A stretch of DNA of 64,000 nt from Aphelocoma coerulescens (lineage: Eukaryota > Chordata > Aves > Passeriformes > Corvidae). How positions within the stretch are numbered: the first letter of the stretch is position 1; each line of letters opens with the position of its first letter. A program made the translations under genes and the position numbers. The notes beneath the pieces are model-generated. The model ran no database searches, was not told where the DNA came from, and saw only the letters and a list, made by a program, of their open reading frames with translations. Location of the stretch: the NCBI RefSeq assembly GCF_041296385.1, contig NW_027184085.1, positions 10,473,301-10,537,300 of the forward strand. Reading direction: 5' to 3'. Shown in pieces: positions 10,201 through 62,480 of the stretch.

Positions 10201-13200
10201 GGGCTCTCCAGATCAGTTCTTGCAGAGTTGGGCAAAGCATCTGCAGCAATGCTTGCAGCTCATGCTCAGTGATCAGTCTCCACTTCACCTTTTGCTGGCA
10301 TCCTGTCCATTAAGCCAGTCTAAAGAGCAGAGCACACTTCTTAAGAACAGATGAAAGTGTGGCTTAAAAAGTCTGGTTGATAAGGATAGAGCAGCAGTGC
10401 TTTTAAGCACAAAGACAAAAGTAAGCACTTGTTAATTGTGCCTGCCACCTCCATCTGCAGGACCTCCTGCAGGTCCTTCCTTTCCACAGTTGCTTTCCAT
10501 TAGGAAGCTTGTTCTCCTGTGAGTGCTTGCCCAAGTACAAAAATTAAGTTTAAGAGCTAAAAGAAGGAACAAGCTGTGATATTGTGCAGTTCTGATGCCC
10601 ATTATTAGTAAGAGATCTTACTAATTTGAAAACTAGTCCAGCTAGTTAGACTACCAAACAGGATAGGTGCAAGGTAAAAATAAATAACTGGAAGCTAAGA
10701 AGGAGTGTGCAGACCAAAGTATTCCCAGTTCCTCTCCTTGATATGGAGCAGCTCCACCCTTGGATGTGTTGGAGGCATATGTAGTGAGGGTTCCTGAGCC
10801 TGCTTTGCTCCCCCAGTCACTGTACTCATACCCCACAGGTGTCTCATGTGCTGGCAGCTCTTCAGGCTGGGAACCGTGGGACACAAGCCTGCATCACAGC
10901 AGCCAGTGCTGTCTCCGGCATCATTGCTGACCTTGACACCACCATCATGTTTGCTACAGCAGGAACCCTCAACCGGGAGAACTCTGAGACCTTTGCTGAC
11001 CACAGGTACGCAGGCGCTATGTCCAGCCTCTGCTCAGCCAGACACAGGGGTGTCAGAGTGGTCCTTCTGAGCACTTCTCCAGCGCCAAGGAGAGCTTCAA
11101 GCTCAGATCATGCTGGCTCCATTTCCCGAAGCTCCAGCTTGTACATAAAAAACCCAGGGTCCACAGTCCCTCTGTACCCCAAGGACCGTGTGTGCAGTAG
11201 AGGGCTGTGTCCTCCATGACCCGCTTTTTCTCTGCAGGGAGGGCATCTTAAAGACAGCCAAGGCACTGGTAGAGGACACCAAGGTGTTGGTGCAGAATGC
11301 CACGGCCAGCCAGGAGAAGCTAGCCCAGGCTGCCCAGTCCTCTGTGTCCACCATCACCCGCCTGGCAGAGGTGGTGAAGCTGGGTGCTGCCAGCCTGGGA
11401 TCTGAAGACCCAGAAACCCAGGTGTGTGACTGGATGTGTGGGCTGAGCAGAGGCTGCTGCTAGGTGGCTTGGAGGGGTTGAGGGATGCAGATGTCATGTG
11501 GTGCTCTGGGCTGGATCCCAAGAGTTGGGGAAAGAAGGGGCTGGGCTTTGGCCAGTGCTGGCTGAGCTGGACTCCCTGTGGTGCCCAAATCCCTTACTAC
11601 TGGGCCACACCATCCCCAGCCTGAGTGTGACCATAGCTCAGCCATTCCCATGGTCTTGCTCTCCCCAGGTGGTCCTGATCAATGCTGTGAAGGATGTGGC
11701 CAAGGCACTTGGAGACCTGATCGGTGCCACCAAAGCAGCTGCTGGCAAAGCTGGGGATGACCCTGCTGTCTACCAGCTGAAGAACTCAGCCAAGGTCTGT
11801 GCTGGTTATGATGAGAAGGAGCAGATGAGGCAGTGGGGCTGGAGAAAGAGATAGGTTTTTTTCTGCCTGTCTGGGCACAGAAGCACAACTGTGGGGCAGT
11901 CAGGACAAAAGGGTAGGAAGGGGCACATAGAAGGTGGAACACAGCATGCAGAGAAGCAATTGAGGCAGTGTGAGTAGAGTATGGGGATGGGACAGTTTTG
12001 GATCAATCCACAAGGGAAGGACAGGTGCATGCAGCAGGCCAGAGCTTGTGTGGGGATTCACCTGGCTGTCTTTCTCTTTCCACAGGTGATGGTGACAAAC
12101 GTCACTTCCTTGCTGAAGACAGTGAAGGCTGTAGAGGACGAGGCCACGAAGGGGACACGGGCGCTGGAGGCCACAATTGAGCACATTCGCCAGGAGCTGG
12201 CAGTGAGTACAGCCGCGGTGCTGCCCCTGCCGCACCACTTGCCCACAGCCCCGTGCCTCACCGCTGCCTCTCGCCTCGCAGGTCTTCTCCTCCCCTGTGC
12301 CTCCTGCCAAGGTCTCCACCCCAGAGGACTTCATCCGTATGACAAAAGGCATCACGATGGCTACAGCCAAAGCAGTGGCCGCTGGCAACTCGTGCCGGCA
12401 GGAGGATGTCATCGCCACGGCCAACCTGAGCCGCCGGGCCATTGCAGACATGCTGCGCTCCTGCAAGGTGGGGCGGGCAGCGGGTGTGAATCTCTAGCGT
12501 GGGTTTGTGGGTGGAGGCAGGGATGGTGCTGGATGTAAATCCGGGTTTCCCCTGTCTCCGGGTTGCAGGAAGCAGCCTACCACCCAGAGGTGAGCGGGGA
12601 CGTGCGGCAGCGGGCGCTGCGCTTCGGCAAGGAGTGTGCTGATGGCTATCTGGAGCTGCTGGAGCATGTGCTGGTGGTGAGTGTCCCCAACCCAGTTCCC
12701 AGGGTGGGCAGAAACTGATCATGGACTGCCTGGGTGTTCCCCAAATCCCCAAGATCCTCTGGGCTCTTCACCTCTTCCCACTAGGGCCTTTGCACAGCCC
12801 CTTCACTGCTTTTGCTGGCACAGTGTGTGTCCGTAGCCCTGCTATGGAAGCAGATGTCAGAGAGCTCAACAGGCTCTAAGAAAGGTAATTTGCTAGTAAC
12901 AGATGGAGATTAACTGGCCATAAACAGATGGAGGCTGGAAATCAACAACACGGTAGTATAATCTTGTAAAAATACAGCTTCCAGTAAAAGTGATAGGAAT
13001 AATAGACCTCAGGCAGTGGGAAAACAAAGTGTGTAATGCCCACAGCACAATGTGTGGGAGATGGACGGTGCCTGCCAGAGCAAAGATAATGACTGCAAGC
13101 GCCCGCTGCACCCTTTTGATTCAGTCTCCCTCTGACTGAGTCTTCCCAAGGACTTCAGCTGCAACATTAGTTTACAACAAGTAAATTAAGCCTCTAGCAT

Positions 13201-16200
13201 GGTAGAAAAGATCCAGTGAAGTCCTTCCAACAGTTTGCATTCTTGGCAAGACCACAGAAGTGGACCCAGAGGCACTGTGGGGATGTGCGCACTCAACCCA
13301 TGGTGCTGTGAGATCCCTCAAAGTGGGGTCAGGACAAAGACTGACAGTGATTCAGCTCTGTGTCATGGTTGCACTAACCTGGTTAGTGAGTGAGTGCTGT
13401 CTGGGATCGCCAGATACAAAGTGATGGAGCCCAGGGTGTGGTTTCCTGCAGGGAATGCCCCCTCAGGCAGAGAGGGTAACCAGCACTGGCAGCAGCCGGA
13501 GGAGGTGGGCAGGAATTGATGGCTAGAAATTGAAGATGAGTAGAGGAGAAGTCAAAGGGTGGTTTTATTAAAGGGAGGTAACCACTGGGGTACAGTTCCA
13601 AGGGGAGCAGTGAGTTTTCCATCCTCTACATCTAGATCAAATGTCTGCCTGGAAGATGCTTCAGGCACACATGAATCATGGCAGCCAAGGCTGGAGTGCT
13701 GAGTAGAAATTCTCTGGCTGACCTGTTGTTAACAGATGATTAGGCTAATGACTTAGTGTGGCAGTGCCCGAGGTCAGCCTACTTGCAGGAACACGCCATT
13801 CCCCTGTATTTTGGGTGTTACCGTCCCGCTGCCGTGCAATGTTTTGACTATCACACATTGGAACATTCCTTGAAATGTTCACTGGAGGTGCCTCTTAGTA
13901 AGCTCATAGCCTCCAGGGTGCCTTCAGCTCCAGACAGAGATCATTTAGCAGTTTAAAACACGTTGTCAGAGCAGACAGCAGGCTTAATAATAAGGCATTT
14001 AGACTAGATGTGCTCATGAGGGCAAACCAGCTATCACTGTGTGCCATCAGCTTGAGTACTCTGAGCCTTACACAGCTCTGGTGACTGCTGGGATGGTCCA
14101 ACACAAGGCCAGGAAAAAGCCATGACTTCCCCCAGTCTCCACAGCACTCGGGTTTGCAAAGGCAGGAGTGAAGCTCATGGGTCCAGTTTATCAGAGCATA
14201 GCAGGTTCCTGGAAAACCACAAGCAGGAAGGATCTAGGGGAATGGGAGGGCAGATGGCGGATGGGGTGCAGCCTCATTCCCCAGCAGCAGCAAGGTCATA
14301 GCTGCACACTGTGTCCCCAAGGGAACCACTGCCTTCCACAGAGCATGAACAAGTATGGTTAGGGTTCAAGAATAAGGGTTATTTGTCTCAGGCTGGAAAA
14401 CATGGCTCCCAGCAGAGGAGTGGGAAAGCCTGCATATTTCGCTGGGGAGGGGTAGGAATTTGAACCTCCATGGAGACTTGGTATTTGGTAACAATAGGTC
14501 TCTCCCTCCAAAAGCAGAGAGATTCCGTGGCTCAAAACTGCAGTGAAGCAATTCAGGGTGGCGAGAAATAAGGTGTAAAGGGTGTGAGGAGGAGAGTGGC
14601 TACTCTGGGTGTAGGTGGCTCCTCTGGCTATGAGAGCCTCATCCCGGTGCCCTGTCTTGCCCATCCCTGCAAGGCTGAAGTAAGAGCTAATGATGGCAAC
14701 ACAGCTCTCCACCCAGGATCTCTGATCCTTTGTTCCCACTTCTCCCCTTGGCTGCCCTTCACCCCTCACCAAAAAGCACCCACCTTCCCCTACCCTCCCC
14801 TATCTCTGCTCCTTCTGGCTGGGGCGTTCACTGCTTTCTTTTCTCTCTTCTCCCTCCTCTCTGTCAGCCGGTGAGTAAGGCAACACTGGGGTGCCTGCTG
14901 GTCTCTAACCTCAGCATGAGCCTTGCTCATCACGTGTCTGTGTGCCCAGCCCAGTGCTGGGGTGGCACTTGTGTGTGTCCACAGGGACCCTGGGGTCCAT
15001 GTGTTTGTGTGTGTGTACTCACCCCTGCTCTAGCTGATGGGCAGCTGCTGCCTGTGTGGTGCAAGTTGGGCCAGCAGTGAGCTCTGCTTGTGCATACAGA
15101 CCCTGTGTGCGTGCACATGTGTGCTGTGGTGTGTGCATGTGTCCCTCCAACCCAGGGAAGGACCCTTAGGGCACTGCCTGCCACCTCATCCCGTTGGGGC
15201 CAGCCCTCCTTGGTGGGGACATGGCTCCAGGGTACCGCCCTTTGCCCAGCTTGCATTTGCAAACAAACCTCCAAAATGGAGCTAGCGAAGGGGAAATCCT
15301 TCTGGAGCTTGAAATGATTTGCAAGGGAGAAATGTTGGCCTGGGTAGCTGCTGAGTGCAGAAAGGCTTGTGCTGAGGGTCTTGTGTCTGAAAGATGTCCC
15401 AGAAGCTGTGGATGCAGAAGGGCCCTGGGGAAGCTCATCCTATCCTGGGGCACAAAGAGAATAGACAGAGTCACTTGAGAAAGCTGCTCAGACAGTGCCT
15501 GATGTGTACGCGTGTGGGAGGGGGCTGGGGGATCCCACCCTCCTTCCCTGGGGAGCACACCCCAAACAGACCTATGAAGTCCCCCTTTTCCAAGTGCTTA
15601 CATCTGCTCCTTCCCCCCAGATCCTGCAGAAGCCAACTCACGAGCTGAAGCAGCAGCTGGCAGGCTACTCCAAGCGCGTGGCCAGCTCCGTCACCGAGCT
15701 CATCCAGGCAGCCGAGGCCATGAAAGGTATGGAAAGATCCTGCTCAAAGGGGCAGGATCAAGGGCTGGGATTAGGGTGGAGGGCTCGGCAGCTGCTGGAG
15801 GAGGTAGGGAAAGTGAGAAATGAGGCTGCATGCAGGTGTAACCTGCCTGGTTTCCCGGTGTTCCTAGGGACAGAGTGGGTTGACCCAGAAGACCCCACTG
15901 TCATCGCTGAGAATGAGCTGCTGGGGGCAGCAGCTGCCATTGAGGCTGCAGCCAAGAAGCTGGAGCAGCTGAAACCAAGAGCCAAGCCCAAGGTAGCAGT
16001 GCTGAGCCTTGTCTGACCCTCATGCTTAGCTTGGGGTGGGCTGGGGCTCTCCTGCCTGTGCTTTAGCCAGGTTTGAAGCCCCATCTGACAGCTGATCCCT
16101 CTTCCTGTACTCCTGCTACCTCCCACATCCCCAGCTGAACTTTCTTCAGGTAGCCTATGCTCTGCTGCACCCCACAGCCCTTAATCCAGCTGTATATGTG

Positions 16201-18566
16201 CCTCCCTCAGCCCCCTGGAGCCATCCTTCTGTTCTGCTCCATCTATCCCAGCACTCCTGCTTGGGACTCACACTCTGCTTTTGCCCGCAGCAAGCAGACG
16301 AGAGCCTGAACTTTGAGGAGCAGATCCTGGAAGCTGCCAAATCCATTGCTGCAGCCACAAGTGCCCTGGTGAAGGCAGCCTCAGCAGCCCAGCGGGAATT
16401 AGTGGCCCAAGGAAAAGTAAGGCCATAAGATGGGAAGGAGAAAATGTAGAGAAGGGTTCTCCTTTCTTCTGCAGCTACTTGTAACCCTCATGCCCTGTGA
16501 CAAGAGGTGTGCAGGGTGATGACCTTTCTTTCTCCCCTCCTTCCTCATAGGTGGGCGCCATCCCAGCCAACGCAGTGGATGATGGACAGTGGTCCCAGGG
16601 TCTCATTTCAGCCGTGAGTATCAAGGTCATGTTGAGGGGTTGAGGAGGAAACCTTCCTCTTGACTCGTGCTTCAAACATGGGGATGCTCTGCCCTTTTGC
16701 TTCTCCTCAGTGGAAGAAGCAGCCATGCTTCTTCCTCCCTCTCCCACATGCTGTGGAAGCTGGTTTTTTCCATCCCATGCCCCACAACCTCCTTGGAGCC
16801 GATCAGGGCTCCTGTACCGTCCCTGACAGCCTTTCTTGCCACAGGCACGCCTGGTGGCTGCTGCCACCAACAACCTGTGCGAAGCCGCCAACGCTGCGGT
16901 GCAGGGCCATGCCAGTGAGGAGAAGCTCATCTCATCTGCCAAGCAGGTGGCTGCTTCCACAGCCCAGCTCCTGGTGGCCTGCAAGGTGAAGGCTGACCAT
17001 GACTCAGAGGCCATGAAGCGGCTCCAGGTGAGTATTAGGCTGCCTCTTCAGCCCCTGTTGCTTGAGGGGTGGCTGGGAGTGGGGTGAGGGCATGTGGGTG
17101 TTCTCCAGGGCTCATGCTCCCTGCCTGCGTGCTGTCAGTGGGAAGTTCACTGGAACACAGGCTCCAGGTTGTTTGGATTTCACTTCTAGCTGTGTGCCAG
17201 GCATGTGAGTGATGCCGGGCTGCTCAGCTTGGCAGCATTCAGGAACAATGAACTGGCACAGGAATAGCTGAAACGGGTGCACTTCTTCACTGGCATTCAA
17301 GAGGTTAATGTGTGGGGGGGCACATTCTGTATCACTGTTAATCCTCAGAGGCCATGGCACACAAGAGGTTAATGCCCATGTGTTGGGGGGTTAACCTGGG
17401 GTCTCAGCACTGGAGCCGAGGGCTGGGAAGAGTCAGCAGGGCTGCCTCCCATCCCAGTCCCTGCCCCGCTCCTCCAAGAGGAGCCAGAGCCTGGCTGGGA
17501 GCAGAAGCGCCTGAAATGGTCATGAGCGGGTGACAAGGCAGCGAGCCATGTAAAGGAATCCCTGCCTGCAGCTCCCAGCACTCCTGGCTGCCTGTCCTGC
17601 CTGCTGGCCCAGCCTGGGCTGGGGCAGGAGTTCCTTCACACCCCGGGCAGCAATCATACCCTGGGGCTGTGACTCATGCTGACATTCTCCTCCTCCCTGC
17701 TGCAGGCCGCTGGAAATGCCGTGAAGAGAGCATCAGACAATCTGGTGAAGGCAGCACAGAAGGCAGCTGCCTTCCAGGACCATGATGAAACGGTGGTGGT
17801 GAAGGAGAAGATGGTTGGAGGAATTGCACAGGTGAGTGAGGCTGCTCCAACAGGGCAGGAGCAGCTCTAGGTGCCACCACAACCTGTGTGTGCTGGTCTC
17901 AGGAACATGTCCTACCACCCACCAGCACAGGTCATGTCTTGAGAGAGCCTCACAAAAATGCTGTGGGTTCACCCATCCCACTGAGCACCAGTTAAACAAT
18001 GAGGCCTCACTTTGTCTGCCGCAAGTAGCCCTGGGTGATGGTGCATGCTCCCACGAGTGTAAAGCCCTGGCTTCCCCTAGGTGCAGAGCCCACAGTATCC
18101 CAGTGTCTGTGACACACGGAAAAGGCAGAGCAGTGGGTAGAGGGTGAGATCTACCTAGTGTGGGGTGCCACAGTCCCAGTGCTGGCTCCGTGCAGCTGAG
18201 ACCCTCTGCACAGCACATGGGGCTGCGCCCTGGGAGCTGCGCTGTTCTGCTTATCTCCAGAGTACCATGCTCTCACCCCAGGGACAAACAGCCCTCATGC
18301 TCAGTGAGGCAGTGGCTGTGATGGGAGGGAAGCAGCAGCTGGAGAACCCAGCTCTGGGGTTGACATTGCCGGTGGCAGAGGCTCCGGCCATCCCTGTGGG
18401 AGGCAGCTGTGACCCTGGGGCTCTCTCCTGGCAGATCATCGCCGCCCAGGAGGAGATGCTGCGCAAGGAGCGGGAGCTGGAGGAGGCGCGGAAGAAGCTG
18501 GCGATGATCCGGCAGCAGCAGTACAAATTCCTGCCCTCGGAGCTGCGGGACGAGGAGCAGAACTGA
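1205..18566 (+). CDS. TLN1: Talin-1, C-terminal three quarters (40 coding exons, 5' partial)
   Basis: Talin-1 links integrin tails to F-actin and recruits vinculin at focal adhesions. The spliced exons give 1876 residues in one open frame. Counting back from a 2541-residue protein, the first exon starts near residue 666, in rod bundle R2; the FERM head and R1 are outside the window. Coding exons: 1205-1372, 1640-1934, 2031-2197, 2581-2709, 3030-3143, 3360-3473, 3631-3765, 3922-4050, 4146-4248, 4321-4529, 4624-4743, 4907-5104, 5435-5574, 5667-5760, 5915-6004, 6176-6298, 6474-6617, 6950-7111, 7200-7340, 7575-7756, 8090-8222, 8342-8443, 8549-8719, 8882-9031, 9162-9263, 9367-9486, 9780-9926, 10839-11005, 11238-11421, 11669-11794, 12086-12202, 12282-12467, 12569-12676, 15621-15726, 15868-15992, 16291-16416, 16551-16613, 16845-17027, 17706-17831, 18435-18566. 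All have AG/GT borders and compatible phases. The Ala-rich helical repeats match vertebrate talin throughout. The ending YKFLPSELRDEEQN supports TLN1 over TLN2. No frameshift or premature stop was seen. Confidence 0.97.
5667..7756 (+). other. TLN1: TLN1 exons for rod bundles R7-R8
   Basis: By residue count, the seven exons from 5667 to 7756 encode about residues 1340-1650. In the known talin architecture this is the five-helix bundle R7 with the four-helix bundle R8 inserted in it. R7 binds KANK proteins, and R8 binds RIAM and DLC1 and contributes to actin site ABS2. The exons are short (90-182 bases) and introns are 81-332 bases. I see no deviation from the conserved sequence here. Domain limits come from remembered human/mouse numbering, so they are good to a few residues only. 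Confidence 0.75.
9927..10838 (+). other. TLN1 intron, 0.9 kb
   Basis: This intron lies between the exons ending at 9926 and starting at 10839. The middle part (10310-10690) is clearly more AT-rich than the surrounding talin sequence. I see no coding frame, RNA gene or repeat that I can name in it. Confidence 0.6.
12677..15620 (+). other. TLN1 long intron, 2.9 kb
   Basis: This is the longest talin intron in the window; most others are 75-400 bases. It contains an AT-richer block (about 12880-14110) with a perfect inverted repeat at 13861-13880, and GT-rich stretches at 14995-15140. No coding exon is recognised; the flanking exons join in phase (HVLV to ILQK). Its size and composition would suit an intronic enhancer, but that is inference. 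Confidence 0.6.
15868..18566 (+). other. TLN1: TLN1 exons for R13 (actin site ABS3) and dimerisation helix
   Basis: The last six exons encode about residues 2291-2541. This covers the THATCH-type bundle R13 (actin-binding site 3) and the C-terminal antiparallel dimerisation helix. The basic KVK triplet needed for actin binding is visible in exon 16845-17027 (VACKVKADHD). The exon 17706-17831 carries VVVKEKMVGG; in mammalian talin, calpain cuts between K and M of this motif to release the dimerisation helix. The last exon is charged and coiled-coil-like (EEMLRKERELEEARKKL). Both the actin site and the calpain site appear intact. Confidence 0.85.
17298..17374. repeat. Direct repeat pair in TLN1 intron
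   Basis: The 13-mer CAAGAGGTTAATG occurs at 17298-17310 and again at 17362-17374, 64 bases apart. Each copy is followed within about ten bases by a run of G. It lies in the intron between exons 16845-17027 and 17706-17831. Confidence 0.7.
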
Positions 18567-22800: not shown

Positions 22801-36273
<13,473 letters not shown>

Positions 36274-41077: not shown

Positions 41078-41265
41078 CATGCCGAGCCGGGAGGGACCCA
41101 CAGCGATCATCGAGTCCAGCTCCTGGCCCTGCACAGGACACCCCAAGAGTCACACCGTGTGCCTGAGAGTGTTGTCCAAACGCTCCTTGAGCTCTGCCAG
41201 GCCGGCGCTGTGACCCCTTCCCCCGGGAGCCTGTCCCAGGGCCCGGCACGCTCCGGACGGGCCTT
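41078..41265 (-). mobile_element. CR1 LINE fragment in the APH1 promoter shoulder
   Basis: GATCATCGAGTCCAGCTCCT, then GGCCCTGCACAGGACACC and GTGCCTGAGAGTGTTGTCCA follow the avian CR1 consensus in reverse-complement orientation. It ends about 210 bases before the APH1 start codon and merges into the CpG island. Confidence 0.8.
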
Positions 41266-41473
41266 TCCCGAGATCCAGCCCCGCGCCCGCCGTGACTGAC
41301 GGGCCTGGCCCCGCCCCCCGCGCCCGCCCCGGGACGCTGCTTCCGGCGGCGGCGGCGCGCGCACGTGTGACGTCATCGGCCCCGGAAGGGCGGCGGAGGG
41401 GGAAGGGGCCGCGGGGCCCGTCCGGTCCGAGCTCCGGGTCCGACCCCGGTCCCGTGTCCCCGCTCCCGCCGAA
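41266..41473 (+). promoter_or_regulatory. APH1 CpG-island promoter with E-box/CRE/ETS sites
   Basis: This GC-rich, CpG-dense stretch has no TATA box. It contains CACGTG (41362-41367) immediately followed by a full palindromic CRE TGACGTCA (41368-41375). ETS-type TTCCGG (41341-41346) and CCGGAAG (41382-41388) flank these sites. This arrangement is typical of constitutive CpG-island promoters. The ATG at 41474 has A at -3. Confidence 0.7.
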
Positions 41474-44400
41474 ATGACGCTCGCCGTCTTCTTCGGGTGC
41501 ACCTTCATCGCCTTCGGGCCCGCGTTCGGCCTCTTCATCTTCACCATCGCCCGCGACCCGCTCCGCATCATCATCCTCATCGCCGGGTCAGTCAGCGATG
41601 GGGGCTCTGGTGCTGCCGTGGTGTGGGACCAGGATCGGCTCCGGGAGCCGTGTGGGCGTGGCCGGGCGCTAGGAGCAGCGCCGGTGCTACTACCAGAACG
41701 ATCGTGGCGGGGGCACCGATTCTGCTGCTGGTGCTGGTCCCAGTGCCTGTACGCGATCACTGTAGTCGTGACCGGGGTGCTGGTACCAGTGACGGTGCTG
41801 GTACAGGATGGGCGTGACAGGAGTGCTGGTACCAGTATGGGTGTGACAGGGTGCTGGTAGCATCAGGGGTGTGATAGGCATGTGACTACTGGCTGAGGCA
41901 CCATCGTGGGTGCAGCAGACACACCAGGACTCATGCTGGTGCTGTTGTGGGCTCACTGGAGTCACCAGGACTCATGCTGATGCTGTTGCTTGCGTGGTAA
42001 GAGCACAAATATTGTTTCTCTTACTGTCACAGCCATTGGCACATTGTGGGCACCAGCATTCATACAGTACCAGTGTAGGGTTGGTAGTGGTACTGGTGCT
42101 TGTGTGCCTCTGGGTAACTGGTACCAGTACCACTGTGAGACCAGAAGGATATGGTACTGGAACTGGTACTGGCATGGATATGAGCCTGGCACGGGTGCTG
42201 GTACTGCTGTGGGCACAACAGGGCGACTGCTGCCAGTTCTGGTGACCAGTGGAGCAGGGGTGCAGGCACAGCACAGTGGTGGGACCAGTACAGGCACCAG
42301 CTGCCCAGCACTGGTACCATAATGGCACTGGTGCTGGTCAGAGAGTGGGCAAGGCCGGGGCACAGCTGCCGGTGCCAGTCCCAACACAGCAGCAGCTCCA
42401 GCACAGCACCGGTGCCAGCAAGCTCTGTCTCTTACAGGGCTTTCTTCTGGCTGGTGTCGCTGCTGCTCTCGTCCCTCATCTGGTTTATCGCAGTGAAAGC
42501 CAGCGACCCCCAGGATGAGCGGCTGCAGAAGGGGCTCCTGATTTTTGGGGTGATGTTCTCTGTGCTGCTGCAGGAGGCCTTCCGCTTCCTTTACTACAAG
42601 CTCCTCAGGTAATGGCATCTCCCCGCTGTGCCAGCACTGCTGGACAGTCTTCCCAGCCATGGTGGTGCCAGATTCCGTCTGTGAGCTGCTGGACTGGGGG
42701 GAATGTCAAGTGTGGCACGAAACTGCCTCAGTGCTTACTGGGAGCACATGGGTGGCACCTGCTTCTGTGTGTTGACCTTAGTGGGTGTCAGGTGGTGGGG
42801 CAGAGCAGCCCTAAGCTCTGGAGGATCTGGTGCCCTGACCAAGCCAGGAAACAGTCTCATTGCAGCTTTGGCAGCTCCCAGCCTTCCTGATACCATTGTC
42901 TTGAAGCACAGGGGCTTGTACTGGCAGGGAAGCACGTGCTGCACCCTGTCCTGTGTATGGACGGACACTGTGCTGGGGCTGGGCAGGCAGGCACGGGGAG
43001 GTGTCCTTCATACTCCCTAGTCTTCCTGGTTGGAAGCTGGGAGAATGCTGGGGGGAGCATGTCTGCAGGCCATGCTGCTCCCTGCGGCAGGGCACTGCCG
43101 GAGGCGGGCAGGCAGAGGGTAGCAGAGCTCCACGGAGCAGCCTCTGACACAAACTACTGCGTTTCCTTCGCCTTGCGGATCTCCGGTCCCAAGTGCTGCT
43201 GTCCTCCCCGGGCCGAGGAGCTGCCTGGCGTGCTCCTTACCTGTCACACCTCTAGTTGGCATAAATTATGAAGCCTCTCCTCTCCCAGTTTCTCCCCCGA
43301 AAGAATTTTTCTAGCTCTTCGAGCTCTTCCCTGCACCTCCTCCATTGTTTGTCAACATCTTCTCGGTATAAGTGCAGAGATCAGGTACAGCCTCCCACGC
43401 CTGCAGTGGGGCTGCTTTCCATGCGGGGGTGCTGCTTGCCTTACACCCAGCGTCCTGCTCACACCAGCCCTGCTCTGCCGGGCTGGCTGGCACCCACATT
43501 CCTCTATGGAAAATCTTTCCGTGTGGCCTCACGTGATTTTCACATGCCTGGTTTGTCTGGTGGTACAGTCACACGGAGGATCTCCGTGGTGGGTGTTGCT
43601 CGGGGAGGGGGAGGTTGCCAGGAAGGTGGCATGGTGCAGAGTGAATACTGCACCATGCCTCGGGAGGTGGCTTGGCTGTGCTGGGCTCCAGTGTGCTCTC
43701 ACCCCACAGGAAGGCCATCGAGGGGCTGGTGGCCCTCAGTGAGGACGGCTGCTCCCCCATTTCCATTCAGCAAATGGCATATGGTGAGTGCTGTGCAGAG
43801 CAGAGCAGCCTGAGCACAGGACAGGGGGCGAGGCTGGGCAGGGCTGCACATGGTGCTGGGAGCAAAGAGAGATTTCTCATGCCAAAGCTGGCTGGATGGT
43901 ACATGGGGTGGCCCTTGGGAGGCTCAGAGCTTAACAGTGTCCCTGTCATGACAGTGGCTGGCGTGGGCTTTGGTCTCATGAGCGGCGCCTTCTCCATGAT
44001 CAATCTCCTGGCAGACGCGTTAGGGCCTGGCACTGTGGGCATCCATGGGGATTCACAGCTGTATTTCCTGACCTCAGGTGAGTAAGTGGCACCCTTCGCT
44101 CACATCTCTGCCCCACCACAGAGGCAGCAGATGAGGCGCTGGAGTTTTCCCTCTTACATTGTCTTGCCCATGCTGCACCCTCACCCACCTGAGCTCCTTA
44201 CGGTCCCTTGTTACATCTCTCTGTGACAAACCCTTCTTGCTGTTCCCTGTGACTCTCCCTGCTCTTCTTTTCATGTCTCCCACACTCAAAGTCTGACCCA
44301 GCACCTCCCAGTCCAGCCATGCTGTTTCTCTATCCCCCTTTTACTGATTCATCTCCATCCCTTCCCCAAGCCTGCAGGCCAGGTCAGGTGGGTGAGTCCC

Positions 44401-45184
44401 TGGTGACACCTCCACTTCTCCCTGCAGCTTTTATGACCATGGTGCTGATTTTCCTTCACACCTTCTGGGGGATCCTCTTCTTTCATGGCTGCGAGCACCG
44501 GCGCTGGTGGGAGATCGCAGCAGTCGTTATCATGCATCTCACTGTTTCGGGGTCGGTGAGTAACTGGGAGTAGGGCTCTGCACTGGGACCTATATTCAGA
44601 GTACTGGTCCCATGCTGGGGTGAAACAGCCTTTGGCACTAGTGAAGCAGCTGGTCCTTCACAAACCAAATCCTGGGGTTGGTGCCACCTGTCCCACTCCA
44701 TTCACTGAGGTGGTGACACTGCCACGCATCCTGTCCCTGTCCTCTCCTGCCTGCTCACCCTTCTCTTCTTGTGCCTCTTCCCGCAGTCATTTTGCAACCC
44801 CCTGTACGTGGGCAGCCTGGTGCCCTCCTACCTGCTGATGGCTGCTGCCGCTGCCTGGGCGTACCTGCTCTCGGGGGGATCTGCGCAGAACCTGCGGCGC
44901 TTCCTGCTCTGTAAGTACTGCTCCAAAAAAGGCATGGGGGACACTTCGGGTCTCATGGGGTACCAGGACCAGTGCTGGGGTGGCAAGAGGTTTTCTCTGT
45001 GGCTCAAACAAGGGCATCATCCCCTTGTCTCCCACTTTAGAGGAGCAGGGAGTTTTTGAGGCTGTGGTTAGGTTGTTGCTTCTCCTGGGAGAAGTGGGGT
45101 AAAGAGTTTGGTGAAAACTCACCACTTCTCTTCTTGGTTCCTGCAGGTTTACGGAGTGGAGCCAGCCCCCAGCCAGGATCCTGA
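41474..45184 (+). CDS. APH1: Gamma-secretase subunit APH-1 (APH1A-like, paralogue unresolved)
   Basis: APH-1 is the seven-helix scaffold of gamma-secretase, the intramembrane protease for Notch and APP, working with presenilin, nicastrin and PEN-2. Coding exons: 41474-41586, 42438-42608, 43710-43783, 43955-44077, 44428-44555, 44787-44910, 45147-45184; 256 residues, the usual length. The N-terminus (TLAVFFGCTFIAFGPAFGLF) is diagnostic. The assembly motif G122-x3-G126-x3-G130 and the essential buried histidines H171 (FLHTFWG) and H197 (MHLTVSG) are all present at the human positions. The loop LSEDGCSPISIQQMAY favours APH1A over APH1B, while several other segments differ from both. It sits between TPM2 and CA9, where human 9p13 has no APH1, so orthology to APH1A is doubtful. 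The last exon is tiny (LRSGASPQPGS) and may be skipped. Confidence 0.92.
41740..42425. repeat. Palindrome-rich minisatellite in APH1 intron 1
   Basis: Most of intron 1 consists of degenerate short units built on GGTGCTGGTACCAGT and its complement (GGTACTGG, CCAGTACC, CCGGTGCC). Because the unit contains the palindrome TGGTACCA, the array reads similarly on both strands and could fold into hairpins. Unit lengths vary (about 20-40 bases). Confidence 0.75.
42609..43709 (+). other. APH1 intron 2
   Basis: A 1.1 kb intron with normal splice sites. No exon, RNA or named repeat recognised. Confidence 0.5.
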
Positions 45185-46075
45185 GGCCCTGCAGGATGTT
45201 CCAGTCCCCAGCCACCCCTCCCCTCCCCTCCTATCCTGGCGGCAGGATCGGCCATCACCTTCTTTGCAATATCTTTTCTCCTGGACTGGGGGACCCTGGC
45301 CAGCCCTGGTGGGACAGGCGCTGGGGTCCAGCTGTGGCAGCCGCCGACCGGTGTGGCTGAGACTGGCTCACTCCAACGCCCCTTTGGGAGTCCCCATAAA
45401 ACACCTCAGTTTTGGGGGACCCAACTTTGCTGGCCCTGCTGTGAGCTCAGCCCTAGTTAGCCTGCCTGTGACTGCCGGAGGCTTGAGCCCAAAGAAACCC
45501 ATCGCTTCTCCCCCCGCTGCCACAGATGTGCTGCCCCCCATGCCAGGGCAGGGGGCCTGCGTTGCCTCCTCGCTGCAGGGTGGAGGAAGGGGCTTTGCAA
45601 AGTGCTGCCGTGCCCTGGGTCGTGGCTGGCTGCTGTAGTGCTCCTTTCTCCACCTCTCTGCCCAGTCCTGCTGCCCCAGAAGCCATGGCCCTGGCACTGC
45701 CCTGCAGTAGCGCAGTGAGCCGGCATCCTGGTGCAGCAGGATGGTGCTGGGGGACCCACGGGTACTGACAGCTCGCAGGATGGGAGGAGAAGAGGGAAAA
45801 AGACAGTATGCAAAAGACCCAGTGGACATGGAGGGTGGTGGAGGGCTTGGGAGGAGATGCAATGCCACAGCTGTTGCCGGCACAGATTTGGGAGGGGGTT
45901 CAAGGGACCATTCCAATGGATCATTGCCCTCTCCTGTTCTTGGGGATTTTCAGGCGGGTACCAGCCCTGGTTCTGTGCCACAGGGCTGGGAGGGAGAAAC
46001 TGCCATTGGGCTGAAAAGGCAGTTTTATCCACAGTGGGCTTTTATACCAATAAAATTAAGTACCACAGACAAGTG
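45185..46075 (+). other. APH1 3' UTR with poly(A) signal
   Basis: Non-coding sequence after the stop codon at 45182-45184, ending at AATAAA (46049-46054). The CA9 3' end on the opposite strand lies about 0.65 kb further on, so the two genes converge without overlap if these signals are used. Confidence 0.7.
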
Positions 46076-46935: not shown

Positions 46936-49900
46936 TTATGCGGTGTTCTCAGTGCTGGCTGCCGTGTAGATGACCTTGGATTTGGTTGGAGAGTCCAGCC
47001 TGTTGGGGAAAGAAAGAAGGGGGGAGTGTTAGACCAGGCACGGGGTCTTGTTGCCTAAAACCACTATTAAACCCCATTCTCATGCCCTGGACCCTTCTGC
47101 CTCCAAGCCCTGTCCTCCTGCATCTCTCCCTTGCTCACCGTGCATTCTGGCTGCGGTGCTTGTAGATGTACAGCAGAAAGGCCAGTGCTGTGACAGCAAA
47201 GAGCACCCCAAAGAGCACGGCCAACACATCTCCTGCAAGCCAAGCACAGGTGTGTTACTCTGGGGATGGTTCCCTGCGACTATTAGCTGAGTAAGAGGAG
47301 GCAAGGAGTAGGCTGGTAGCCCAGGGGCAGAGGAGACAAAGGAGCAGCCTTGGCTAAGCACACTTACCTGCATGAAATGAGCTGGAGTGTCCTTCTGCAA
47401 AGGAGACAAAGACCAGCGGATGAGAACCAGCAGCATGGATGCCAGAGCAGCCCTACAAACCCACTGGCTGCCTGCTCCCAGCTCAGCACATGGCTTCCAC
47501 AGGACCCCAATTCCCAAGCAGGTACACCCCGTGCCCTCCTTCCCCTGCTTTGTGCCAGACCCTCTGCTACCTACCTACCCACCCTCACCTACCTGCTGTT
47601 GCTGAATCATCGCTACCTGTAATGAGAGACAACACAGTCAGGAAGTTGCCTTTGAAGTGTTTGGAGAGGGAAGTCTCAAGCCTGCAGGCCTTCAGACCCC
47701 ACTTCCAAAGTAAGGCTCCCCTCAAGGCTCCCCATCACCCATGAGCAGGGGAGAGATGCCTGCCACATCCCCAGCAGCTCACAGCATCTTGCTGCAGGAA
47801 GCCCAGCTCTGACACTCTGGCAGAAGCATGAGGAAAAGGGAGGAAAAGGGAGAAAAATGGATCCCTGAACCACAGCCCACACCTGAGCTTTGCTGAGCCC
47901 AGCCAGAAACTCCCCCCACTGCTGCTGCCACAGCCTAGGGAGCAGTCAGGGTGCTGAGCACTTCAGCACCCCATGACTGCACTGGACCCCACAGGAGTCC
48001 CCAGAGAGTCACATGGGATGAGCCCAGCAAGCAGAAACTGTGGGAGCAGTTGCCTGGAGTGAGATGGTCAGCAGCTCCCAGAGAAGAGGCAGCCACACAC
48101 TACACGTAGGGCACCTGGCATGGGGATGGCTTGGTGGCCCTACATGCTGGGAAGGAGCTGTGCTGGACAAATGTTTACCCAGCATAAAAACATGGCTTTT
48201 AAAGAGCTGCTTTATCATCTGTACACGGCTTGGGTGTTGCACACAGTGGCACTATCTGCGGGCTCTATCCAGGAAAGCTGCCACCTCCACCCAGCAGCTG
48301 GGGGCAGGAGCGGTTATCCCAGACTGGTGGTGACTGGAAAAAAGATCAACAATGGGCACAGAAGGTGCAACTACAAACAAAACAAGATGTGACCCCACAG
48401 CACCCCGTCTCTGTGCTCAGCAGCCCCAGGGGTAAAGCAGGCAGTCAGCACTGACGTGGGGAGAAACCCCCAACAATTCTGTGCACACAAGGCATGACCT
48501 CATCCAGGAGTACTGGGGCATTCTCCTGGCACTTCAGGAACAAGAGACTTGTGGCTTTGTTACAGTAGGGAGTTTTGTATAGAAATAGCAAAAAATGAAA
48601 AGAAAAAAAATAGAACTGGGCAACTCCCCCCTTGCCCCAGCACTGGGAGGCTTTGGAACAGCTTCTGCAAGAAAATAGGAAAAGAAAGGCTTGGAGGTAA
48701 ATGGAAAATATGATAAAGTATCTAACAGGTTTACCAAAGATAGAGCATGCCAGCCTAACCTGATATCCTTCTTTGATAAGTGATGTTCTAGACAAAGAAA
48801 ATGTGGTAGATTTTATCTCTCCCAGCTTCAGTGAAGTATTTGATGCAGTGCCACATGGGAAAGAGCTGGCCAGGCTGAAGACCACAGTGATTAAAAGCCT
48901 ACAGCCATTAGCAAGCAGGCTGCAGGTGGGATGGTGAGGGAAGTGCCTTGCACCACAGTGTGTGGTTATCGAGGCATTGCCCAGACGCCTGGGACCAACC
49001 CTGTGCTGTTCCTATTAGTCACCTTCACAAAAGGTGTAGGAAATGCCATCAGAAAAGAAAAGGAACAGGATGTTAAACAGAAAAACCCCAGTGACCTCAG
49101 GGAGAAGCAATGGGCAAAAATTCAGTGATGCAGAGCGATAGTCACACCTGAGGATTAATAGTGATTTCTACTCATGCCTGGAAATCACCAATGCAAGAAA
49201 GACCTTCAAGGAGAAATAAAGGGTGGGCAGACAGGGATCTCTCAGGCAAGGGACTGTGTGCCTCGCCAGCACAGCTGTGAGGCCCCACTGGCAGAGCGCA
49301 GCCTTCAGGAGGGGTCCCCAGCACTGCCCTTCCTGCAGGATTTGGAGGAGGGGTGTTCACTGCAGGCTTGTATCTCTGGCAGCTCCTACTGAATTTGTCT
49401 ATTGCATTTGGGATTGAAGTAGCTAGCTGGAGTGCTAGGACCTGCCTGTTTGCTCTTGACCATGCATCCCCTAGTCCTGCTACTGTTATGCCTGCAAGAC
49501 TATAAGTTCCTAGAAATCAATCTTCCCCAGAGAGCATGAAAGAAGTGCAGAAATGAGAGAGTGTGGGACCCTAAGACCAGTGCTGCCACACATCACTTGC
49601 TGGGCACATCTAACCCATGCAGATGCTGTGTTTCTGTAAGAGACAGCAAAGCACTGACTCCTGCTGCTCGCCCCATCACTGCATCCCTGCAGCTGGGAGC
49701 AGCCTGGGCACACTCACACACTCCTTACCAGGAGCGTGCTTCACCAAAGGGGTGGTCTGGAAACTCGCCAGCACCCGTCGCCCATGCAGGTTCTGCACTG
49801 GCCGGTAGTTGCTTTGCAACAGCTTGTCATCATCGGTTCTCAGGCTTGAAACCAGCATTGACATCTGGAAGGAGAACAGTGTGAACAGAATAGCATCATC

Positions 49901-52900
49901 CTGCCTTTGGGGGCTGGATGAGCTGCAGAGCACTGGCACAGGGCACCTGCATCAGCTTACTGGGACAGGCTGGGAAAGACCCAGTGCGAAGCTCATTGCC
50001 CACACAGACCTGGTGATGAGAAAGCAGCATGGTCTGGTTGAAGATTGTCCATTTGACTATCTGGTAGCAGGGAGGGGTGGTCAGAGAGCCATTATAGTGG
50101 AAGTAGAGTTTCAGGTTGTCAGGCAGCAGACCTGCAATGTTGAATCCGGGCACCAGTGTTTCCTGTCCTGGGAGAGGAAACATAATGGGAGTGAGACTGG
50201 TACAAATTCCTTGGAGGACAGCAGCATGAAGATCGTGGGCAGTCTGGTACTGTATGTGCCACTGCAGCCACTGGAGGAAGAGCAGCTGGTTTGCTTGGGA
50301 GGCAGGGGAAAGCAGGTGGGCTGCCTGCTGCAGCCTTGCTCTGCCGAGCAGCAGGCTTCTCTGCTGGACTGCAGCCGCTGAGACAAAGCACTAGTGGGAC
50401 AGGGCCTTACCCACTTCTTGGATTTCGAACAGATGCTTTAGTATTTCATGGTAGTACTGGTTCTCCCCGTGCCCAACCTGCAACAAAGAGACCCCACTGT
50501 AATGGCAAGGACAGGGGCCAAAGGGAGACAAGATGGTGATGGCAGTGCCAGCAAGAAGGTATCACCCCTTGAGAGAGGCACCCTATCCCAGTGACCCCTT
50601 CATTCTGCCCTTTCTCTCCCCTTCTTTCAAGGTGCATTTGCACCTCTGCCAGTCCCCAAAACTGTGCCCAACTCTGCCCACTCTAGTCCTATCCTCCCCC
50701 TGCTGATCCATGGAACTCACCTCCAGAAAGGCTCCCAGTACAGCCAGGCCATCTGGGTGAACCAATGCCTCTCTAAAGCTGTCGTACTTGGTGTTGTAGT
50801 GGACCACATGGATCTGGAAGGGAAACACGTAATCCCAGTCCTGGATGGGCACCACTGGGAGATGCTCACTCCCACAGGGCTACAGCCTGCTGATGCAAGG
50901 GCTGTAAGAGACATGCAGATGTGACGAGTACCCCTGTAGGGAAGGGAAAATGCTGGCGGGACCAAGAAAATCTGCTGCTGCAAAGCAGCCAGCATGAAGG
51001 TCTGCCTGCAGAAACTTCCCTGGTCAGGAACAGCAAACCAGCACTCTGTCCTGCATACCAGTGGCTCATACTGCAGAGCCAGGCTCAGTTTGATGACAGC
51101 AGCTAGAGAAGGAGGGATAAAACCAGATGGGAGCTGGCAGAGCAAGAGGACAGTGTGTACAGAGTAAACAGTCCCTGTAGCTCCCAAAGCAGGCTCACAG
51201 CTTCCAGGGAAGCTGGCTTCCACAGCCTGGGAGCTGACACAGCTCCTGCTCCATCAGCCCAGGACCAGGCTTCACATGTGTCTGGCTCAGCATCAAAATG
51301 TAGCCTCCTACACTGAACCACCACAGCTGCAGAGCTGCCCAGGATCCTGGCCAGGGGTTACAGCCTACATCCAGTGACAACCAGAGCCATGGGTGAGAAG
51401 CATCACAGCATTCCAACTCCTTCCCTGCCCAACACCACAAGGGAAAAGATGCATCCAGCACCATGAGGGCTCCTTACCTCAGCAGGAAAGCGTCGCCCAT
51501 TGATGGTGTGCTCTGAGCCGGGTCCCAGCGGGGACCCCCAGTGCAGGTGCAGCTGCACAGCTCGGTACTGCTGGGCATAGCCACCAGCGAGGGCCAGGGA
51601 CTCAGGCAGCTCAAGGACAACTGCGGAGGCAGAAGGAAGAGGTCAGTAAGTCAGTAATTCAACATAAAGCCCAGTCCTTTCCACAGGTACGCAAAGGAGA
51701 TGTCTCAAGGGAAACAGTCACCCTGGGTTTCTAGAAACTGGTCATAACAGAAAACCTTGCTTTCCATCTCTCATGAGGCTGTGGGCAAGCCTGCCAATGT
51801 GCCAGGGTTCAACTTTTGACTTAAGGTTGTAGGAAACTGCAGTAAATACATCAGCTTCAAAAATAGCTACTGCGAAAATGCCAGAAAGTGAAGACCCCCT
51901 CCGCAAAGACTCCCAGGGCCAGCTCCAAGCCAAATGTTATCCAACAATTTATTGAGTAAGTGAGAATAATATAAAGAGACCATGGACAAAATTCATAGAG
52001 AAAGATACTGGCAGAGTGGTGGATATCTGTGAGAGCAGGGCAGTTGGACAGAGAGCTGCAACTCTTAGCAAGCTGGGACCTTTCAAATAAAGCAGCCTGT
52101 AAGTGTACGACAGCACTGGAGCTAGTGGCACAGAAGCATTAAATATTTTGAAAGCACCTAGAGCTAAAATTTTTGCTTCTTTGGATACCATAAATTCACA
52201 CATTGATTTTTCTTTACTTTAATGTTGTTTATCCAGCTGTTTCGGACTTAGGCAGCAATGTGGCAAATCTAAAACTGAGTTACCTGGACATGTGGCAAAA
52301 ATATCAGGAGCATCCCTTGACCCTGAGAGAGGCTGTCCTATCCTTTTAAGCACCTTTTTCCTAATTTTTAATGTAAGTTCTTTCCCTTTTCCCTTTTTAG
52401 ATGAAGTGCGTCTTAGTAACATTGCCAAGCTAGGGCACAAATTCGGGATTAACCACGTAACAGGGCTGTGATGAGTCATTGGCCATTTCGGCTTCCTTGC
52501 CACTGGGTTCAGAGATAGAAAACTCAAATACAGGAAGTGAGAAACTGTTCCCTCCCTATGAATTTACCTGCTTTTATACTTCTTTTGTATAGCTAAACTA
52601 TTGTTTTCCTTCTCATAATTACCTGAGTCATTTTCAGGCCCTCAAAAAATGCTTGTATAGCATAAATACCTTGTTACTGAAATGAGTAACTGTACAAATA
52701 TCTTACTGGACTTGCAACTTTTTATTTATTTATGGATCTTCATAAAGCAGACCAGTGGTTGCCACAATAAAAAAAGGCATCTTATAAGCATGTGAGAAAG
52801 TACTTCCCCCCTGCCCAATGAAAATGCTCTCACTGCTTTCCTAAACACCAAGCAACACCAGATTCCAGGGTGTCTAAAATAGCAACCACTGAGCTCAACT

Positions 52901-55900
52901 AGTTTAACTCTGCAGGCACATTAGGGCAGGAGGCCACAATATAGAGCTCTGCGCATGCACCACGCAGCTGATCTGGCCATACACAGCAAGTCTGACCTGT
53001 CAAGTTTGCTGTATACACAGGTCAGCTCCATCTCGTTGGCTACCAGGGCAAGGAGGTGCCTTATCACACCGTCAGCAAGTTCTTAAGTCCCTTTCTCCAT
53101 AACCTTTTCTTAGCCTGGGGACTGGCAGGCACCAGTGTGCACAACACGTTCTGCTTCCTCCAAGAAAAAGCTGGTAGCAACCAGGTCCAACCATCCTCAG
53201 CTCTGGAAAGATGTGGTTTTTGTCCGTATCTGGCATACTGAGGCTGATACTAAAATAACATGAATAAGTTCTGTCCAGAATTTTACAAAAACCATCTGAT
53301 ACTGGAGAAGGGAAACAAAAGACCTATAAAAAAGTTTTAAGGTCTTGAGATAGAATCCTTAAGTACAAAGTAAGATGGTCAAAGCTGTGCCCTAAAAGAC
53401 AGATGTAGGTAGCTTAAAGGTTAAGCCACATCCAGCAACTGATGAGTCCTTTGAAAGTGAAATGCAGGGGAGGAAGCAGTGGCTGAAAACCTGCATCAGA
53501 AATACCAGAGACACATTTTTAAAGAAAATGTGGAGTTAAAAAATTTCTGAAGCCAGCTCCCAAATGCTTTGGACATCTCGGGGCTTCTCACTTTGTCCAA
53601 GAAAACACATGGACCTGCAAAATTTCTACAGCCTGTTGCTTCTGTTTTGGCCTAGAAGGCAACAGGGCTGCAGCCTGCAAGACTATTTCCTTCCCAGAGC
53701 CCAGGGGAAGGGTGTCAGAGAAGCCTGGTCCTGCTGGGGGAGTCTGAGTGTCCTCTGTTTGTGCTCCAGCCCCTGCAGGTGCCTTTGCCCCTACCTGTGT
53801 GCCCATTGTTCTTCAGCTTGAGCTGCTTGTTGGCAGGCAGGCTGTAGCCAGAGAGCTGGATTGGCCGCAGGTCAGGGCTGAAGGTGGCCTGAGCTGTGTC
53901 AACATTGATGGGTGACTGCTTGGTGCCCCCACAGTCCGAGTAGTCCGTACTCCAGTGCTTCAGGTCTGGTGCAAGAAGGAAGGGAGGAACTGTCAGTGAG
54001 AGCGCCAGGAAGAGGACACCTCCAGAAAGAAGGTTTGGGGGTATTGGGGAAGGGGACAGGCACTGGCCAGGGAATTAGCCATGCACATAAGGTTAGCTTC
54101 CATGAAGTTAGCTTGGGAGCAGCTTTATGCCAACATGTGACTGAATGCAGCTGTATCAGGAAAGGTCTCGGAGCATGGTGAGCTGCCAGGAAAGTCTATT
54201 TTTGGGGTGTTTAGGAAGAGTGCAAGAAGATCATTTACAAGTGGACTTGGCAAGCTGAGGAGCTGCTGCCCTGCAGCTCATCACACACTTGCTGCCTTGA
54301 ACAGCCTGGCCTCTGGTAGGTATTGCCCCTGCTGCTGCTTGAGCAAGGTACCACAGTGCTCCTGGGCTCTGTTACAAAGGGCCAGCTCGCATGGCTCAGT
54401 TGGCCACAGAAATGGACGCCTCTCCCCAGTGCCACAGCTGTGATAAGCACAGCTGATGCCCCAGAAACCTCCCTTTGCACAGCAGAGGTCTGCTTCTAGC
54501 ATGTCATGGGCCAGTGCAAACCCAGGCTCATCACCAGGCAAGCCCCTTGCAGGACCCCTGTAAATACGGAGCTGGGCTTTAGCAGCTGAGCCAAACCCCA
54601 GGGTGATGGTGCAGTAGTAAGGGGTGCATCTGTCACAGCACTGTGGTGGTGCCCATCATGGGTGCTGTGGAGAGGCCCCCCAAGCCTTGATGGGAGGGCA
54701 GGGCCAGGCAGGATGGGAAGGGAGGGTGACAGAGGGCAGAAGTGAAGACAAGCTAATCCCTGGGCTGGTCAAAGTCCCAGCACGGGGAGTCCAGCCTGGG
54801 GAGTGCAGCCCTTTCCCCCACTTGGCTTCCCACAGGGTCAGGGGAGCTCTCGTTCAGGGAGGATCCGTTCCCAGAGGGGCATCCCCCCACACCCAGGGGC
54901 TAGGAAAGCCCTCATTGGAGCCGCTGCTTCCTGGTGAAATCAGAGCAACACCTAGTTCTTCAGCCCATCCACGCCTGAGTGCAGGCACTGTGTCAGGGTC
55001 AGGCAGGAGGGAAGGGTGAGTCGTGGAGTGTGCACAGAAGCCCTGTAATCATTAACCATGGCTGGCTCAGGCCCAGGATTTGCTGGGTAGTAGGAAAAAA
55101 GCAGAAGTAACTGCAGGGTATTTACCTTCATAGCTCCAGTGGCTGTGGCCTTGAAAAAAAAGAAAAGAAAAAAACCACATGAATGGAAGGGAAAGGTTGT
55201 CAGCAAACACGTCTCTGCTAGGCAGCAGGCCTCTGTGCTCCCACTGCCGTCCATCCATCCCCCTCCTCGCCTTTGCTTTCCCACTTCTCCCTCTGTCCCA
55301 ACAAGAGGCATGTTCCCAGAGGGTACTGCCTCCTCAGAGCACGGCCAGGTCCCCTGCAGTTGTCGGTCAGAGGGAAAACTCCATGCCTGACATTTTGGCA
55401 TTGTCCTTAAAAAGGAAAAATCAGAGGTATTGGCTTCCATCACTGAGCAGCTGTACCAGCAGCTGCTCCAGAGCAGCCAAAGCCTCCCACTGCCTCAAGA
55501 CAAGGCACTTCACAAGTGCAGCTCCCCCACTCCACGAGGAATTTGGGCAGCAAGATGCACTGCACCATGCAGACGCCCTCCTCCCACCTGGGAAAGCTGC
55601 CTGGGACTGAGAGCAGAGGAAGAAAAGGAGCATCAAAACCTTCTCTTTACATCAGCGAGTGCCCCTGCGGTAGGCATGGGCTTTCACAGGAAAATGTGCC
55701 AGGCCAAATGCTCAGCTCCTGTCCCCAGCTGTAACTCATATAACCACCCAAATGCCCACACAGAGCTGTGTAAAGTCCTACCATGCAAAACCCTTTCCTT
55801 AGGAAAAGCAGGAGGGAGGATGGGGGATCCTGTGCCAGGACCTCTGCTCTTCTTGTGTCACCCATGGGTCACACAGTGACCACAGCAGGGCAAGATGTGA

Positions 55901-62187: not shown

Positions 62188-62480
62188 CTCCGGCAAGTGC
62201 GCGGGTGCGGGACGGCGGCTCCGTGCCTGCCCGCCCGCCCGCCCGGCCGCACGTAAGTGAGAGCGGGCGGGGAGGAGGCGGCGGCTCTGAATCACGCCTC
62301 CGTTACCTTTTATAGGGGCTGGAGCCAAAGTCTGCCGCCGCACGGTCCGGCCAGGTGAGCCGCCCGACGCGGGACTCGAATCCGGGGCTCCCCACGGAGG
62401 TGTCCCTACCCCACCCCAGTCCCCCACCGGGACATGCGGTGGAGCAGGGGGCGGGGGGCCCCAGTCGGCTCCTCAGTCTC
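62188..62480 (-). promoter_or_regulatory. CA9: CA9 promoter: TATA box and hypoxia-response-like site
   Basis: Reading the minus strand, a good TATA box TATAAAAG lies at 62313-62306, which places the start of transcription near 62280 and gives a 5' UTR of about 90 bases. TACGTGCG at 62255-62248 contains the HIF core RCGTG and is one base off the human CA9 hypoxia-response element TACGTGCA. The region is CpG-rich and GC boxes are frequent. Confidence 0.6.

Follow-up and report, generated by a model that had tools for sequence, protein, structure and literature searches.

A third APH1 gene lies intact between TPM2 and CA9

The window, a stretch of 64,000 nucleotides of Aphelocoma coerulescens DNA, carries an APH1 gene on the forward strand at 41474-45184 (Table 1). 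Its seven exons encode 256 amino acids in a coding sequence of 771 nt including the stop codon; the frame has no internal stop and all introns are of the GT-AG type (6/6). Intact frame and canonical splice sites rule out a pseudogene. The product matched the Pfam Aph-1 profile (PF06105) with 306 bits (gathering cut-off 25.6) over profile positions 1-231 of 231. In the PDB it matched human APH-1A with 350 bits and human APH-1B with 291 bits, at 64% and 57% identity, respectively. Residues important in APH1 proteins, namely G122, G126, G130, H171 and H197, are all present, and the protein keeps all 68 of the 68 near-invariant columns, meaning columns with an identity of at least 97% among the remaining APH1 rows. 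The closest protein by identity, among the matches listed, was the UniRef entry P0002 (n=30, Passeriformes). The region directly upstream has a GC content of 0.75 and an observed/expected CpG ratio of 0.92, compared with 0.24 for the whole window. Rfam and tRNA scans across the window found nothing.

The order and strands around the gene are TLN1+, TPM2+, APH1+ and CA9-. The coding start of TLN1 lies outside the window at C39:10464217 on the same contig, with N-terminal exons in L016 from base 917; its last exon, ending near 18557, was 98% identical to TLN1 versus 88% to TLN2 (tblastn with probe sequences). The TPM2 product (query 46-210) matched a tropomyosin beta fragment in the PDB with 291 bits and an alpha-1 fragment with 259; full-length alpha-1 chains scored higher, up to 408 bits, because the PDB beta chain is short. 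The carbonic anhydrase, its exons joined approximately, gave 201 bits against CA9, 165 against CA14 and 148 against CA12. Gene model, residues and neighbours thus agree with a preliminary description of this stretch, which had placed an intact APH1 gene bearing these five residues between TPM2 (+) and CA9 (-). Contig C39 (72.3 Mb) is probably Z-linked, judging from its size, the contig order and the correspondence of human 9p to the avian Z chromosome.

Table 1. Positions of the genes and other features in the window.
Feature	Position	Strand	Remarks and basis
TLN1 (talin-1), 3' part	1..18557	+	tblastn with TLN1/TLN2 C-terminal probes
TPM2 (beta-tropomyosin), with alternative terminal exons	23085..36270	+	tblastn with probe sequences
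CpG-rich region, putative APH1 promoter	41101..41473	.	CRE-like TGACGTCA at 41368; base composition
APH1 exon 1	41474..41586	+	start codon 41474; GT donor; gene model
APH1 exon 2	42438..42608	+	AG/GT; gene model
APH1 exon 3	43710..43783	+	AG/GT; gene model
APH1 exon 4	43955..44077	+	encodes G122/G126/G130; AG/GT; gene model
APH1 exon 5	44428..44555	+	encodes H171 and H197; AG/GT; gene model
APH1 exon 6	44787..44910	+	AG/GT; gene model
APH1 exon 7	45147..45184	+	stop codon; AG acceptor; gene model
AATAAA, putative APH1 polyadenylation signal	46049..46054	+	motif scan
CA9 catalytic-domain exons, tail to tail with APH1	49757..53960	-	tblastn with a CA2 probe

The window protein falls in a clade apart from APH1A and APH1B

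Related proteins were sampled by searches with the window protein, coelacanth APH1B and coelacanth APH1A; the best 120 of 919, 936 and 852 matches, respectively, gave 264 distinct proteins. A tree of 86 rows was built with IQ-TREE under C20 from 83 of these 264, the window protein and two human PDB sequences. It resolved three clades, each with 100/99 support: APH1A with 30 rows, APH1B with 23 and a third with 33, the window protein included. All 33 third-clade rows stand on one side of a branch (100/99), and they come from skate, chimaera, reedfish, gar, bowfin, teleosts, coelacanth, amphibians and sauropsids. The tree, drawn from vertebrate rows, is unrooted; it separates the three clades but does not order them. 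Residues at six positions characterize the third clade (K58, A59, R95, A121, M134 and S232); position 95 is arginine in the third rows and lysine in the 30 A and 23 B rows. With a 10-bit margin, profiles made from the clades assigned 88 of the 264 proteins to A, 89 to B and 86 to the third clade and left 1 undecided; 83 of the 264 had also built the profiles. The undecided protein, P0087, lies between B and third (422 versus 416 bits) and has a long branch.

One alternative takes the window gene for an APH1B or APH1A orthologue that has moved or been misnamed. Database names of the bird protein point that way, with APH1A in Cisticola (P0009), APH1B in Pelecanoides (P0011) and Aph-1b-like in Cariama (P0003), and so do the identities to the human proteins given above. 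The tree contradicts the orthology that such names assert. Bird and reptile entries named 'Aph-1b-like', 'APH1B secretase' or 'APH1A secretase' are this gene where they class as third, and third-group entries from Cariama, Spheniscus and Ficedula are 93%, 92% and 100% identical to the window protein over 96-99% of the length. Salmo salar P0079, named 'Aph-1b', likewise falls in the third clade. In the AU test, grouping 16 sauropsid third rows with APH1A was 55 log-likelihood units worse (p 7.0e-5), and grouping them with APH1B was 57 units worse (p 2.8e-6). The protein therefore sits outside both clades, in a supported one that reaches to coelacanth, fishes and cartilaginous fishes, as the preliminary description had proposed when it spoke of a third group.

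APH1A is intact and APH1B decayed elsewhere in the genome

The window protein was searched against the assembly (1.33 Gb in 660 contigs, which may miss sequence) and found three places: the window, one on contig C26 and one on C12. The C26 locus (803087-804924) is an intact APH1A of seven exons, with a 267-aa model whose last junction is uncertain. It lies tail to tail with CA14, with ANP32E about 11 kb away. Its product groups with passerine APH1A, is 94% identical to that of Dasyornis, and keeps all but one of the 68 near-invariant columns (F14 to L).

The C12 locus (17126957-17127127) is a lone exon 2 that carries three stops in frame. A fourth stop counted by the search tool lies, on reading the DNA, in the intron donor. 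Among the 86 proteins, the four that matched the relic best were turtle and tuatara APH1B, with 36-37 of 57 residues identical and scores of 165-169. By group, the scores were 93-169 (median 140) for B, 102-142 (125) for third and 83-124 (108.5) for A, so that the reptile APH1B rows stand clear and the B rows at large do not. Upstream of the relic, RAB8B (+) is 8 kb away and TLN2 about 170 kb beyond that; on the other side, the last coding exon of CA12 (-) is at a distance of 7 kb. In human 15q22, APH1B occupies this RAB8B/CA12 site. Eight APH1B queries found no further APH1B exon within 30 kb around the relic at E <0.05; a permissive search of the same surroundings gave many weak matches. When turtle APH1B was run against the full assembly (E <=1), its 11 matches all fell in the window, C26 and C12 loci (13 candidates scored). 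Given a stop-bearing exon between RAB8B and CA12 and no other copy found genome-wide, APH1B died in place in this lineage; it decayed at its own site in this passerine. Of the separate loci that the preliminary description had looked to, APH1A is thus present and intact beside CA14, whereas APH1B beside CA12 is down to one exon.

These two loci, the tree and the AU tests together rule out a relocated APH1A or APH1B, a reading to which we give next to no probability: the protein nests in neither clade, and the genome holds a separate APH1A and a separate APH1B remnant at its own site.

The intact APH1 genes here are two, APH1A and the third gene, unlike the human pair of A and B. Two is also the number given for humans (PMC4073283, consulted in part). 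The preliminary description had supposed an additional type of gamma-secretase complex, the window gene working as a third APH1 beside A and B. For gene content this holds in the coelacanth Latimeria (A P0091, B P0081, third P0046) and the caecilian Geotrypetes (A P0185, B P0136, third P0044), which list all three. In this bird, however, it is extremely improbable and had to be given up: one exon carrying three stops is all that was found of APH1B, turtle APH1B otherwise matches the two intact paralogues alone, and no bird, crocodilian, lizard or snake is named among the 89 B-classed proteins of the matches listed.

Vertebrate lineages appear to keep different APH1 genes

The presence or absence of each gene by lineage, as given here, is a lead drawn from the best 120 matches per search, with one name per cluster and some entries without an organism name. 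Among the matches listed, the third gene occurs in birds, crocodilians, turtles, squamates, salamanders, a caecilian and coelacanth, and among fishes in reedfish, gar, bowfin, teleosts, skate and chimaera; no mammal is named in this group. APH1B, among the matches listed, occurs in cartilaginous and ray-finned fishes, coelacanth, caecilians, turtles, tuatara and mammals. APH1A, among the matches listed, occurs in cartilaginous fishes, bichir, sturgeon, paddlefish, coelacanth, lungfish, amphibians, sauropsids and mammals, with no teleost named. If mammals had a third gene, it should score above the B and A proteins that close the window-protein list (best 120); an avian APH1B should likewise score above the bird APH1A entries in the coelacanth-B list (best 120). 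The third gene seems to have been lost in mammals. From the matches listed, birds at large, crocodilians and squamates seem to share the A-plus-third swap, and teleosts to have B plus third without A. The earlier view that this lineage keeps a copy lost by mammals agrees with the absence of a named mammal from the third group among the matches listed, but the retention is not peculiar to one lineage.

The third gene appears more conserved than APH1A in this bird

The window protein is 89.8% identical to its alligator counterpart and this genome's APH1A 75.1% identical to alligator APH1A; by this measure of sequence identity the third gene appears the more conserved of the two in this genome. 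Among chosen rows, APH1A identity to alligator was 74.3-78.4% in five other passerines, 72.2% in a hummingbird and 83.3-89.4% in six other birds. For the third protein, eight birds (chosen rows, two passerine, the window included) gave 79.6-90.2%, with a 283-aa entry from Ciconia at the low end. APH1A of two parrots (P0227, P0229) shared 67-68% identity with coelacanth A, and passerines are at a similarly low level. Because the hummingbird and the two parrots have diverged as well, the case for an APH1A speed-up confined to passerines is weakened. Biased gene conversion in GC-rich DNA could explain part of the speed-up; GC around the C26 gene is 0.65 over 10 kb. With the hummingbird, the parrots and the GC-rich setting in view, a shift of roles from APH1A to the third gene in passerines is therefore only a possibility.

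The third gene might also be intact yet little used or redundant, with APH1A carrying bird gamma-secretase. Mouse Notch signalling needs the Aph1a subunit (PMC4073283, in the part consulted), which agrees with this account. Against it stand the higher conservation of the third protein relative to APH1A, the CpG-rich putative promoter region upstream of the window gene, and a gecko-like third-clade frame (P0021) of 257 aa on a 1294-base contig that is most easily taken as a transcript. We regard such redundancy as unlikely.

Discussion

We put the probability at roughly 93% that the window gene is a third APH1 ohnologue at the TPM2-CA9 copy of an ancient gene block, standing as the second APH1 in place of the dead APH1B and adding no type of complex. 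In this genome the block copies read TLN1-TPM2-third-CA9 on C39, TLN2 ... RAB8B-APH1B relic-CA12 on C12, and APH1A-CA14 on C26. Human 15q22 carries TLN2+, TPM1+, APH1B+ and CA12-, human 1q21 APH1A tail to tail with CA14, and human 9p13 TLN1, TPM2 and CA9 with no known APH1. Because of the blocks in this genome, the three clades traceable from cartilaginous fishes on and these human maps, a TLN-TPM-APH1-CA block was probably copied in the early vertebrate genome duplications, giving three APH1 ohnologues, of which the third would have been retained at the TPM2-CA9 copy. The membership of the window gene in such a block, with APH1A separate beside CA14, bears out the preliminary description.

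The window gene resembles mammalian APH1B (human 15q22; mouse Aph1b/Aph1c) in being an APH1 family member, the second APH1 beside APH1A, and in its TPM-APH1-CA setting; it differs in belonging to a separate clade, while the true APH1B orthologue here is a one-exon remnant. With mammalian APH1A (human 1q21) it shares 64% identity, the key residues and the tail-to-tail arrangement with a carbonic anhydrase, but again the clade is separate, and the bird's own APH1A sits on C26 beside CA14. Lineages also keep different ohnologues in ALDH1A (PMC2682703) and slc26a12 (PMC11145369), both consulted in part; APH1 differs from these in being an obligate gamma-secretase subunit.

As the scaffold of gamma-secretase, APH1 binds nicastrin and takes in presenilin and PEN-2. 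The third product, predicted to be a multi-pass membrane scaffold, would join the same three partners to form gamma-secretase, and it may cover work that APH1B does in mammals. Mouse Notch requires Aph1a complexes; when Aph1b/c is lost, Notch remains intact and the processing of neuregulin-1 is hampered (PMC4073283, in the part consulted). In a bird without APH1B such work must fall to APH1A, the third gene or both. Blocking Aph1b in zebrafish produces Notch-like defects (PMC4075077, in the part consulted), which may fit another division of labour in a group with no APH1A among the matches listed. It is conceivable, and we offer it only tentatively, that after duplication the three genes were sorted per lineage (A and B in mammals, A and third in birds, crocodilians and squamates, B and third in teleosts, all three in coelacanth and caecilian) with a fresh division of the work in every case. 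The main gamma-secretase role in passerines would then be passing from APH1A to a third gene that is probably Z-linked, and the make-up of gamma-secretase there could be of another kind than in mammals and could vary in dose between males and females.

Among the matches listed in open-licence literature, searched by titles and abstract starts, we found no description of a third vertebrate APH1 or of avian APH1B loss. By term counts, neither APH1 nor secretase occurs in the main text of two papers on genes missing from birds (PMC12954441, PMC4290089), and a paper on Notch pathway evolution (PMC2770060) does not separate the APH1 paralogues in any of the 12 places examined, out of 13. APH1 is a known family of known function; in the literature searched, neither the third orthology group nor the A/third swap appears to have been described.

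Since third-group entries called 'APH1B' are not orthologous to mammalian APH1B, knowledge of APH1B, such as that on mouse neuregulin-1 (PMC4073283, in part), cannot be carried over by name to chick or zebra finch. A brain running without APH1B offers a direct way to test whether a given property is general to APH1 or peculiar to one paralogue. Mammals and this bird draw on one ancient APH1 set but use different genes from it.

Divergence of APH1A and the remains of APH1B

In a protein comparison of chosen rows, the APH1A proteins of the compared passerines and one hummingbird were 72–78% identical to that of alligator, while six other birds, at 83–89% identity, were far less diverged. APH1A of Aphelocoma coerulescens carries a four-residue deletion in exon 2. 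The speed-up of APH1A may be common to parrots too. Between RAB8B and CA12 lies a one-exon APH1B fossil, the splice donor of which remains readable.

Features and their coordinates (C12, C26 and C39, contigs of the A. coerulescens genome; L009 and L010, stretches of C12 and C26)
Feature	Position	Strand
APH1A	C26:803087-804924 (= L010:4088-5925)	
APH1B fossil	C12:17126957-17127127 (= L009:6958-7128)	
TLN1, TPM2, third APH1 and CA9	C39:10464217-10527260	
Tandem arrays within intron 1 of third APH1	window 41794-41988	
Third APH1, last intron	window 44911-45146	
Open frame	window 61978-62472	minus

The third APH1 gene and CA9

Read-through of the last donor of the third APH1 gene yields an alternative C-terminus resembling a Ficedula protein entry (P0002), and for this reason some transcripts may retain the last intron. 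Intron 1 contains short tandem arrays with 28-base and 41-base units. The open frame on the minus strand, in which a signal-peptide-like start is followed by an acidic stretch, is possibly the first exon of CA9.

Other lineages and chromosomal setting

Among the matches listed (the best 120 of 919, 936 and 852 for the window protein, coelacanth B and coelacanth A), named frogs occurred only with A proteins and none with B or third proteins; frogs may therefore have kept APH1A as their sole APH1. Another APH1 protein, P0087, was intermediate between the B and third profiles and had a long branch in the tree. It possibly comes from a jawless or another early vertebrate, and if so might be of use for rooting the APH1 tree.

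The 72.3-Mb contig that carries the third APH1 gene together with TLN1, TPM2 and CA9 is probably the Z chromosome, in which case the dose of this gamma-secretase subunit could differ between the sexes.
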